From assembly GCA_035939775.1 (NCBI GenBank), contig DASZFO010000101.1, positions 1 to 47,558 on the forward strand: DNA of 47,558 bases, read 5' to 3'. The stretch's first letter is position 1, and each line of letters opens with the position of its first letter. This document shows, piece by piece, positions 11,885 to 33,143 of the stretch. The stretch comes from Pirellulales bacterium. GTDB taxonomy: Bacteria; Planctomycetota; Planctomycetia; Pirellulales; DATAWG01. The translations under genes were made by a program, and so were the position numbers. Under the pieces are notes generated by a model, which was given only the letters and a program-made list of their open reading frames with translations, was not told the DNA's origin and did no database searches.

Positions 11885-11890
11885 TAGAAT
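11885..11890 (+). promoter_or_regulatory. -10 element 6 bp before the ATG (leaderless-type start)
   Basis: TAGAAT is followed by exactly 6 bp (GGCCGC) and the ABC ATPase ATG at 11897. Transcription starting about 7 bp after a -10 would begin at or next to the start codon. No Shine-Dalgarno site is present. The same spacing occurs at three other genes (31945, 32534, 32853). Confidence 0.55.
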
Positions 11891-11896
11891 GGCCGC

Positions 11897-12832
11897 ATGA
11901 CTGAACCGCTCGTGGGGGTTGTTGAGCTGGGAAAGCGCTTCGGCGAGACGATGGCGCTGGAAGGCGTCAGCTTTCGCGTCGAGGAGGGAGAAATCTTCGG
12001 GCTGTTGGGCCCAAACGGCGCGGGGAAGACGACTCTACTCTCGATCCTGGCTTGTCTCTTGGCGCCGAATTCGGGCGAAGCGCGGCTTTTTGGCCGCGCG
12101 GCAAGCCCGCGCGATCGGGAGGTGCGGCGGCGGCTGGGCATCGTGCCGCAGGAGCTGGCCCTCTATGGCGATCTTACGGCGCGCGAGAATCTTCTGTTTT
12201 TCGGCGGCCTTTACGGGCTGGCCGACGACGTGCTCTGCCGAAAGACTGACGCCGTGCTCGAAGCGATGGGGCTTGCCGATCGGGCCGATGACCGGGTCGA
12301 TACGTTCTCCGGCGGGATGCAACGGCGGTTGAACCTCGGAGCGGCGCTCGTTCACGATCCGCAGCTCGTGTTGCTCGACGAGCCGACCATCGGCGTCGAT
12401 CCGCAATCGCGAAACCACATCTTCGAGGAGATCAAGCGGCTCAATGCCCGCGGGGTGACGATCATCTATACGAGCCACTACATGGAAGAGGTCGAGGCCC
12501 TCTGCCGTCGAATCGGCATCATCGATCACGGCCGACTGATCGCCTGCGACACCTTGCCATTGCTCCTGCAAAGACTCCAGGGGCAGATTCGCTTTCAGGT
12601 CTCCGAAGTCGCGTTGGCTCTTCGCGAGCGTCTGGCTGCGTTAACCGACGCTCACTTTATCGAAGAAGCAGATCATCGAATGGCGCTGGAATGCCGCGAT
12701 GTAACGGGCACCCTGCTCCGTCTGATCGCTCTACTCAAGGAATTGCAAATCGAATTGACGCATATCGAGACCATCGAACCAAACCTGGAACGCGTATTCC
12801 TGCACCTGACCGGCAAGACACTGCGAGATTAG
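11897..12832 (+). CDS. ABC transporter ATP-binding protein (ABC-2 exporter type)
   Basis: 311 residues. Walker A is GPNGAGKTT (residues 38-46), the ABC signature is FSGGMQRR, and Walker B is LVLLDEPTIG with its catalytic Glu, followed by YTSHYMEE containing the switch His. A C-terminal extension of about 80 residues follows the nucleotide-binding domain and is common in exporters of the CcmA/NatA/DrrA type. It supplies ATP-driven power to the ABC-2 permease encoded 92 bp downstream. The cargo is unknown. The start is preceded by a -10-like TAGAAT at 6 bp and no ribosome-binding site, which suggests leaderless translation. Confidence 0.93.
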   Translation: MTEPLVGVVELGKRFGETMALEGVSFRVEEGEIFGLLGPNGAGKTTLLSILACLLAPNSGEARLFGRAASPRDREVRRRLGIVPQELALYGDLTARENLLFFGGLYGLADDVLCRKTDAVLEAMGLADRADDRVDTFSGGMQRRLNLGAALVHDPQLVLLDEPTIGVDPQSRNHIFEEIKRLNARGVTIIYTSHYMEEVEALCRRIGIIDHGRLIACDTLPLLLQRLQGQIRFQVSEVALALRERLAALTDAHFIEEADHRMALECRDVTGTLLRLIALLKELQIELTHIETIEPNLERVFLHLTGKTLRD

Positions 12833-31832: not shown

Positions 31833-31900
31833 ATCTGTGGAACTCTGTCTAATCTGTGGATGAAAGATCTGATCCACAGATTAGACAGATTTGCACAGAT
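31833..31900. repeat. 68-bp inverted repeat (ATCTGTGG-type)
   Basis: Two 29-bp arms with three mismatches surround a 10-bp loop. The inner 18 bp (TCTGTCTAATCTGTGGAT and its complement) pair perfectly. It lies between divergent argH and the small membrane-protein cluster. The 'AATCTGTGGAT' motif resembles dispersed repeats of many genomes. Confidence 0.7.
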
Positions 31901-31932
31901 GTTTGTCGCGGGCCGCCAACACCTCGCGATGC

Positions 31933-31938
31933 TACAAT
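31933..31938 (+). promoter_or_regulatory. Extended -10 (TGC-TACAAT) 6 bp before ATG 31945
   Basis: TACAAT with an upstream TG one base away, followed by exactly 6 bp and the ATG. This predicts a leaderless transcript. Confidence 0.6.
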
Positions 31939-31944
31939 GCGGGC

Positions 31945-32220
31945 ATGTGTAAGCCATTGCAGTTTTCAGTTCGCCGGATGCTTGGCGCTGTGGCGCTGCT
32001 CGCCTTGGCAGCGCGACTGGCAATGTTGTTCATCGCTGAGAGGACCAATCCGCAAGTAACATATCCGGTCCTGCTCTACATTGGGTGTTTTGCCACTGGT
32101 GGGGCGGCGCTCGGCCGCATTACGGGCAGTCCGCTCAGGGGCGCTTACATGGGCGCTCAGTTGGGAATAATGACTGGCATTGTCGTAGTCCCGGTGATTG
32201 GCTCAGCAAGAGGTTTGTGA
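31945..32220 (+). CDS. Small 'KPxQFSxR' membrane protein, paralogue 1
   Basis: 91 residues from the ATG at 31945 (MCKPLQFSVRRMLG); the longer frame from 31891 has no support. The N-terminus matches the paralogues at 32534 and 32853. Three hydrophobic helices follow (AVALLALAARLAMLFI, YPVLLYIGCFATGGAAL, AQLGIMTGIVVVPVIG). QFS-L/V/M-R starts are common among planctomycete small membrane proteins of unknown role. The stop is one base before the ATG of the next gene (TGAGATG), so the two are co-translated. Confidence 0.75.
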   Translation: MCKPLQFSVRRMLGAVALLALAARLAMLFIAERTNPQVTYPVLLYIGCFATGGAALGRITGSPLRGAYMGAQLGIMTGIVVVPVIGSARGL

Positions 32221-32221
32221 G

Positions 32222-32473
32222 ATGAACATAGACGGTTTGCGGTCGGCACTTCGCCGGGAACCATTTCAACAGTTTGCAATCCGTTTGGCAGATGGCCGCA
32301 CGGTGCCGGTGAGGCATCCGGAATTCGTCGCCGTCGGGCCCCGCTTGGTTTTGGTGGTTGACGAGGACAATTCTTGGTCGATCATTGAGCCGCTTCTGAT
32401 CGTGTCGCTCGATTCGCTCCCCAAGCGAAACGGCGAGAACGGGAAACGCCGCAAGCGGCCGCCGCGCGGCTGA
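32222..32473 (+). CDS. Small conserved hypothetical protein
   Basis: 83 residues from the ATG at 32222 (MNIDGLRSALRREPFQQFAI). The pattern, a short helix, RLADGRTVPVRHPEFVAVGP, then a strand RLVLVVDEDN and LLIVSLDSL, matches a widespread small family of unknown function in planctomycetes and other bacteria. A basic C-terminal tail (KRNGENGKRRKRPPRG) follows. It overlaps no other gene and starts one base after the stop of paralogue 1. No membrane segment is present. A role with the neighbouring membrane proteins is possible but unproved. Confidence 0.75.
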   Translation: MNIDGLRSALRREPFQQFAIRLADGRTVPVRHPEFVAVGPRLVLVVDEDNSWSIIEPLLIVSLDSLPKRNGENGKRRKRPPRG

Positions 32474-32521
32474 CGTTGCTGCCCGTGGATTGGTCAACGA
32501 GTCGGCTCATCGACGGCGTGA

Positions 32522-32527
32522 TACAAT
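32522..32527 (+). promoter_or_regulatory. Extended -10 (TGA-TACAAT) 6 bp before ATG 32534
   Basis: Same layout as at 31933: TG, one base, TACAAT, 6 bp, ATG. No Shine-Dalgarno site is seen. Confidence 0.62.
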
Positions 32528-32533
32528 GCGGAA

Positions 32534-32788
32534 ATGAGCAAACCCGTCCAGTTCTCGATGCGGCAGATGTTCGGCACAGTGGCGCTGGTTTCTATGGCGG
32601 CGCAGTTGGCCGTGTTGTTCTTTGCCTCGAGGCTCGATCGGTCGGTCAATCCGGTCGTGCTCTTCGTTGGCTTCTTCGTCGCCGGCGGGGCTGTCATCGG
32701 CCTTATCGCGGGCAATTCGATCAAGGGCGCTTGCGTCGGCGCTCTAGTGGGGATTATCGGCAGCATTCTGATCCCGTATACGCGATGA
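32534..32788 (+). CDS. Small 'KPxQFSxR' membrane protein, paralogue 2
   Basis: 84 residues: MSKPVQFSMRQMFGTVALVS, then helices VALVSMAAQLAVLFF, PVVLFVGFFVAGGAVIGLI and ACVGALVGIIGSILI. It aligns over its whole length with paralogue 1 (identical lengths of the helical units, shared Gly-rich third helix). It lies 60 bp after the small conserved gene and carries its own extended -10, so it is likely transcribed alone as well as by read-through. Function is unknown. Confidence 0.75.
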   Translation: MSKPVQFSMRQMFGTVALVSMAAQLAVLFFASRLDRSVNPVVLFVGFFVAGGAVIGLIAGNSIKGACVGALVGIIGSILIPYTR

Positions 32789-32840
32789 ATGGCGACGGCG
32801 TATGTCGCTCGGCCAACGGGCTCGCGTCTTGGCGAAGTGA

Positions 32841-32846
32841 TATAAT
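32841..32846 (+). promoter_or_regulatory. Extended -10 (TGA-TATAAT) 6 bp before ATG 32853
   Basis: A consensus TATAAT with TG one base upstream, followed by 6 bp and the ATG. It is the strongest of the four leaderless-type signals in the window. Confidence 0.68.
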
Positions 32847-32852
32847 GGGGCG

Positions 32853-33143
32853 ATGAGCAAGCCAATCCAGTTCTCGATGCGTCGGACGTTCGCGGCTACA
32901 GCCGTCTTCTGCGTCGGCGCATGGGAACTCGCCATGCTCGATAAAAGGGATGATCCGGACTTTGTTCTCGGCTATCTCCTTTGGGTCGCAATCTTCGCAA
33001 TCATCGGGGGTGTACTCGGAATTGTTGTCGCAGCGAGGCCAATCGTTGGCGCTCTCTGTGGCATGGCTGTGTGGATTTGGCTGGCCGGAATAGGCATTCT
33101 GGCACACGGCATCACTAGCGACCATGCCCGGTTTTTTCCTTGA
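32853..33143 (+). CDS. Small 'KPxQFSxR' membrane protein, paralogue 3
   Basis: 96 residues: MSKPIQFSMRRTFAATAVFC, then an Asp-rich loop (DKRDDPDFVLG) and helices LLWVAIFAIIGGVLGIVV and LCGMAVWIWLAGIGIL. The N-terminal dozen residues match paralogues 1 and 2, but the remainder has diverged more. It ends 155 bp before the carB start. Function is unknown. Confidence 0.72.
   Translation: MSKPIQFSMRRTFAATAVFCVGAWELAMLDKRDDPDFVLGYLLWVAIFAIIGGVLGIVVAARPIVGALCGMAVWIWLAGIGILAHGITSDHARFFP

Follow-up and report, generated by a model that had tools for sequence, protein, structure and literature searches.

We identified a defined class of gene start in a Pirellulales genome, in which a -10-like hexamer (TANAAT) stands at a fixed distance of 6 bp, with a raised count also at 7 bp, ahead of an ATG start codon. 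The class is present genome-wide and across the order, and its most likely meaning, as read from the DNA, is leaderless transcription. The genome (6.39 Mb) is fragmented over 384 contigs, and the window, i.e., the whole stretch of 47,558 nucleotides that was analyzed, is contig C101. The argininosuccinate lyase encoded in the window has its best matches, at about 75% identity, in Pirellulales/Planctomycetota genomes. Spacings between hexamer and start codon are written below as N followed by the number of bp.

In the window, TANAAT is found exactly 6 bp ahead of the ATG at 31945, 32534, 32853, and 11897. Hexamer, spacer and start codon read TACAAT-GCGGGC-ATG (31945), TACAAT-GCGGAA-ATG (32534), TATAAT-GGGGCG-ATG (32853), and TAGAAT-GGCCGC-ATG (11897). 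The features of the four genes and of one neighboring gene are as follows:

11885..11890, + strand, -10-like hexamer TAGAAT, 6 bp before ATG 11897
11897..12832, + strand, ABC transporter ATP-binding protein, 311 aa (Pfam ABC_tran, 4e-32), unrelated to the paralogues; predicted leaderless start
31933..31938, + strand, -10-like hexamer TACAAT, 6 bp before ATG 31945; TG at 31930-31931
31945..32220, + strand, small membrane-protein gene, 91 aa, beginning MCKPLQFSVRRML, from translation and paralogue match; predicted leaderless start
32208..32213, + strand, SD-like AAGAGG, 8 nt before ATG 32222, read from the sequence
32222..32473, + strand, ORF of 83 aa, probably SD-started and in one transcript with the preceding gene, which stops at 32218-32220
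32522..32527, + strand, -10-like hexamer TACAAT, 6 bp before ATG 32534; TGA at 32519-32521
32534..32788, + strand, paralogue gene, 84 aa, beginning MSKPVQFSMRQMF; predicted leaderless start
32841..32846, + strand, -10-like hexamer TATAAT, 6 bp before ATG 32853; TGA at 32838-32840
32853..33143, + strand, paralogue gene, 96 aa, beginning MSKPIQFSMRRTF; predicted leaderless start

The initial annotation had described these four sites as lacking a Shine-Dalgarno (SD) sequence and a clear -35 element, and all four were recovered as described. None of the four genes has an SD-like core between -4 and -20, and no close TTGACA-like hexamer was seen by eye at 15-19 bp. The TG one base before the -10, which had been reported for the three paralogues, was found as well (TGC, TGA, and TGA at 31945, 32534, and 32853) and is absent at the ABC transporter gene. 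At 32534 and 32853 the reading frame is closed 15 nt ahead of the ATG by the TGA of the extended -10, and at 11897 it is closed 12 nt ahead by the TAG of TAGAAT, so the starts of these three genes cannot lie farther upstream. Two more TANAAT-N6-ATG sites in the window (10055 and 15020) are followed by ORFs of only 22 and 6 aa; four of the six sites are gene-linked. The 32222 gene lies directly behind the 31945 gene and, with its SD-like AAGAGG (window 32208-32224), forms a contrast to its leaderless-type neighbors in the cluster. About 50 bp before the -10 of the first paralogue, an inverted-repeat-like stretch was observed (31848-31901; TCTGTCTAATCTGTGGAT ... ATCCACAGATTAGACAGA), which is perhaps a terminator or a regulatory hairpin.

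The three small proteins of the window belong to a group (MSKPxQFSMRRM) with six members in the genome, three in the window, two on C235 and one on C245. The protein encoded at 32534 is 49% identical to that at 31945 and 41% identical to that at 32853, and the differences at codon positions 1/2/3 (27/17/37 and 27/23/34, respectively) fall mostly at third positions, so these genes very probably encode proteins. In each of the six paralogues, exactly 6 bp separate a -10-like hexamer (TACAAT, TACAAT, TATAAT, GATAAT, TATAAC, and GATAAT) from the ATG, with differing upstream sequences. The spacing common to the three paralogues of the window is inherited together with the promoter and does not represent three independent cases. 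The proposal of a defined class of start, which the initial annotation had drawn from this shared spacing and from the ABC transporter gene, is upheld by the genome-wide and order-wide enrichment described below, which constitutes the independent support, whereas the spacing in the paralogues does not count as such.

A comparison of the 6-bp spacing with other spacings throughout the genome, which the initial annotation had put forward as a check, revealed 74 TANAAT-ATG sites at N6, 28 at N5, 56 at N7, and 28 at N9. Over the remaining spacings from 2 to 12 the mean count is ∼30, and the reversed-pattern control gave 9 sites at N6. The enrichment whose absence would have refuted the proposal was thus observed. 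The spacing class is thus one of 6-7 bp with a peak at 6, N7 being raised too. The starts proposed by our home-made gene caller were often 70-100 nt off, which made spacings measured from them too noisy, and motif-centered counts were used instead. When only gene-linked sites were counted, defined as an intergenic motif followed by an ORF of at least 60 aa, 16 were found at N6 vs. 33 in total at 20 other spacings (mean 1.65; Poisson 3e-11) in 1.88 Mb of sequence, taken partly from contigs with a known TANAAT-ATG match at any spacing from 2 to 12, a choice that favors no spacing. Two related hexamers are also enriched at N6, namely GANAAT (24 vs. 5.4), whose excess stems largely from a 43-bp repeat family described below, and TANGAT (10 vs. 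1.75, with 7 at N7). The looser pattern TANNNT showed no enrichment at offset 6 in 810 kb (65 vs. 36-71 at other offsets).

The enrichment at N6 is tied to ATG (17 vs. 2.9), with little or none for GTG (4 vs. 1.8) and TTG (2 vs. 2.6). SD cores (GGAG/GAGG/AGGA) are present at 2 of 41 N6 sites vs. 15% of all ATG-ORF sites. The upstream neighbor is on the opposite strand or at least 50 bp away for 16 of 17 TANAAT-N6 genes vs. 822 of 976 (84%) called genes, so that these genes look promoter-proximal, as do most called genes, with transcription units delimited by distance; the difference is weak when taken alone. A TGn was counted at 7 of 41 N6 sites and at 9 of 126 controls. The extended -10 is therefore a feature of the paralogue group and not clearly of the start class.

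These counts indicate that the leaderless-type start is a minority class, with roughly 45 strict-hexamer genes above background, or about 1% of the genes. Because neighboring spacings carry about 28-56 sites, some of the N6 sites are background, and the hexamer by itself says little about a single gene; the four genes of the window rest on joint evidence and not on the motif alone. Pairs of TANAAT-N6-ATG sites on opposite strands, 50-80 bp apart, were observed in this genome (C14:23914-23990 and C139:20067-20156) and in the relatives G035 (C9:31711-31787 and C84:82756-82835) and G051 (C53:16911-16989), and are possibly back-to-back leaderless promoters.

Across 57 Pirellulales genomes, the summed TANAAT-ATG counts at N5/N6/N7/N9 are 1315/2395/2139/1579. 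N6 exceeds N9 in 49 genomes and is lower in 7, and it exceeds N5 in 48 and is lower in 8; among these Pirellulales genomes the N6 peak is absent in G006, G017, G020, G042, and G056. In a sample of 199 genomes from the phylum, the excess of N6 over N9 is strong in some families (G078, 38/8; G142, 44/7) and absent in others. One genome of this sample (G093) has more TANAAT-ATG sites at N9 (53) than at N6 (27), with controls near 0, and perhaps uses a different preferred distance between -10 and start. Control stretches of E. coli (150 kb; 0 sites at N6 and 4 at N7) and Deinococcus (200 kb) are too small to decide.

The position of the hexamer bears directly on where transcription begins. A -10 ending 6-7 bp before an ATG would put the transcription start at the A of that ATG, and the simplest reading is a leaderless mRNA. 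The raised counts at N7 (56 in this genome, 2139 in the order) would also fit some leaders of 1 nt, and at many of the genes several hundred bp of non-coding DNA lie upstream, where a second promoter could be accommodated. Near-leaderless or mixed mRNAs, starting within 1-3 nt of the ATG on either side or produced partly from such an upstream promoter, are nevertheless unlikely: N9 is back at the level of N5, and a leader of 1-3 nt leaves no room for an SD sequence. We regard leaderless promoters as a well-founded, though sequence-derived, interpretation of the TANAAT-N6/7-ATG sites, and one that is likely to be correct.

When all N6 sites were listed, a sharply bounded repeat of 43 bp surfaced before many genes (ATCnCTTGCTCCGGCTGCCCGCGGTCGGGGATAATGCGGCC followed by ATG), which contains GATAAT-N6-ATG. 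Its consensus is ATCnCTTGCTCCGGCTGCCCGCGGTCGGGGATAATGCGG followed directly by CC and the ATG. Most columns are 70-100% conserved from about position -3 to the ATG, and both flanks about 30-60%. A 22-base core of the module was found 62 times in the genome with at most 3 mismatches (reversed control 0) and 0 times in a relative of the same family; a single copy with 2-3 mismatches was found in each of ten further order genomes, which is about the reversed-control frequency there. The 43-bp repeat is apparently specific to this lineage. Within 11 mismatches, 68 matches to the module were found in the fetched stretches, two of them probably by chance, leaving about 66 copies, and none in the window. 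The three window genes are hence linked by the -10/ATG end and by their protein family, and lack the complete module. The module loci that were recorded are:

L063, L064, L272, L137, L273, L274, L284, and L271, own genome, loci of the 43-bp module

Copies of the module are often clustered in genes of the same orientation (contigs C71, C187, C235, C318, C333, C56, and others). The module-led genes mostly begin with MQTEPPKADPPKRKRRWFQFSLRSLL, a charged stretch plus membrane anchor, and the bodies behind this start vary from LRR proteins and DUF1559 pseudopilin-like proteins to small membrane proteins; truncated ORFs are found behind many copies. Family members lacking the module keep TANAAT-N6-ATG (C192, C30, and C145). 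A second recurrent start block (... GGCGGGGTTTTTCAYGCGCTGGTATAATGCGGCC followed by ATG) was observed in the same genome at L064:2991 and L115 (reverse-strand offset 1762), with a terminator-like GC stretch and a T-run just upstream of the -10, before ORFs of 99 and 89 aa.

REP and MITE elements are multi-copy intergenic repeats, short, sharply bounded, present in many copies and confined to one lineage. The 43-bp module resembles them in all these respects. It differs from them in that 51 of the 66 copies end exactly at an ATG (several others at AAG, GTG, ATT, ACG, or ATA), in that the orientation toward the gene is kept, and in that its folding is no better than that of shuffled sequences (z = 0.09). 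No Rfam match for the module was found.

Module copies show an open frame of 13-125 codons ahead of the ATG, usually with a TTG at -36, which raises the question of whether the block is coding, with the true starts farther upstream (e.g., at this in-frame TTG) and a conserved peptide LLRLPAVGDNAA. In the window, stops in frame with the ATG at 32534, 32853, and 11897, 12-15 nt ahead of it, argue against this, and substitutions in the module are distributed over the codon phases as 21/39/37, without concentration at third positions. A set of 13 ungapped members gave identities of 85% for the module, 26% for the 40 nt preceding it, and 83/87/66% for codon positions 1/2/3 of the genes. The block is thus more conserved than the third codon positions, which indicates that it is constrained or homogenized as DNA, beyond the effect of recent duplication alone. 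On the upstream stops, the substitution phases and the block identity, a coding role of the module was rejected, and we give upstream starts almost no credence.

Since three of the window genes and the 66 module copies are paralogous or repeated, hexamer-N6-ATG could also be regarded as a by-product of amplified DNA, one ancestral promoter having been copied without any general class behind it. After removal of the small-protein paralogues, however, about 11 TANAAT-N6 genes remain (the ABC transporter gene and others) vs. 1.65 expected, and the enrichment is seen in most of the 57 genomes of the order, which apart from this genome lack the 43-bp module. Mere copying is therefore a highly improbable explanation, and a start class of general occurrence, read as leaderless, is retained.

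The N-terminal protein family is present in 41 of the 57 order genomes. In G035, which belongs to another family of the order, five of the seven family genes listed start at TANAAT-N6-ATG; in G046 this holds for 6 of 32 family genes at N6 or N7, and in G051 for at most 1 of 13. Coincidence of family genes and sites was established by cross-matched coordinates, with a chance of ∼0.001 per gene as estimated from site density. Recurrent words spanning hexamer to ATG were observed in G046 (TAGAATGCAGGCCATG and TAGAATCAGGGCCATG) and in G051 (TATAATGGGGCGATG and TACAATGGCGTCCATG), suggesting that each lineage may amplify its own version of a promoter-start repeat. Tentatively, and with considerable doubt, the module might be a self-contained promoter-plus-start-codon unit that is spreading or being homogenized in the lineage and that brings leaderless expression and an N-terminal membrane anchor to otherwise unrelated bodies, among them LRR repeats and DUF1559 pseudopilin-like proteins, while other Pirellulales would amplify versions of their own (e.g., TAGAATGCAGGCCATG in G046 and TATAATGGGGCGATG in G051).

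We propose the following model for the start class. A sigma-70-type -10 (TANAAT, also GANAAT and TANGAT) would end 6 or 7 bp ahead of the ATG, and RNA polymerase would begin transcription at the A of the ATG or beside it, about 7 nt past the -10. The resulting mRNA would have no leader and would be translated from its 5'-terminal AUG without an SD sequence. In this Pirellulales genome it would be a minority mode of starting, used mainly by promoter-proximal genes and heavily by a lineage-expanded protein family with a KRRWFQFSLRSLL-type N-terminal membrane anchor, in which the genes were presumably duplicated together with the whole promoter-plus-start unit, a conserved block of 43 bp that ends at the ATG.

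By published accounts SD usage is low in Planctomycetota, and start annotation is uncertain. The present data extend a specific, testable start class to this phylum, and a -10 at 6-7 bp before an ATG offers a simple rule for correcting start codons. In addition, the lineage studied here preserves the whole promoter-plus-start unit as a single conserved block throughout a large family.

A leaderless start class is already known from other phyla. TA-like signals (TANNNT) about 12 bp upstream of the start were described for leaderless genes of Actinobacteria and Deinococcus-Thermus (Zheng et al., 2011; PMC3160421), in a paper whose main text does not contain the word Planctomycet, and leaderless genes figure in the transcription start site map of M. 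tuberculosis (PMC3898074). The class described here has in common with these genes a -10-like hexamer ∼12 bp upstream (counted from its first T), the lack of an SD sequence and, presumably, a start codon at the transcription start. Leaderless genes make up a minority to a large fraction of the genes in Actinobacteria and Deinococcus-Thermus and a small fraction here. Unlike the signal of those phyla, TANNNT is insufficient here, and the inner bases of the hexamer carry information, with AA at positions 4-5. For Planctomycetota only a hint was found: Nakagawa et al. (2017; PMC5397173) report, in the parts of their study concerned with non-SD genes, base biases that suggest leaderless and/or S1-dependent initiation, with Planctomycetes among the phyla. 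Those parts deal with phylum-average base biases only, with neither a promoter spacing class nor a gene set. A literature search, outside of which most subscription journals lie, found no paper on a 6-7 bp spacing class in Planctomycetota. The closest counterpart is in Deinococcus, where a -10 motif located in most cases about 6-7 bp ahead of the ORF, without a ribosome binding site, was studied as a promoter (PMC12340547) and concerns nearly one third of the genes with no pathway bias. Unlike in Deinococcus, the strict hexamer marks about 1% of the genes here and is over-represented in an expanded protein family.
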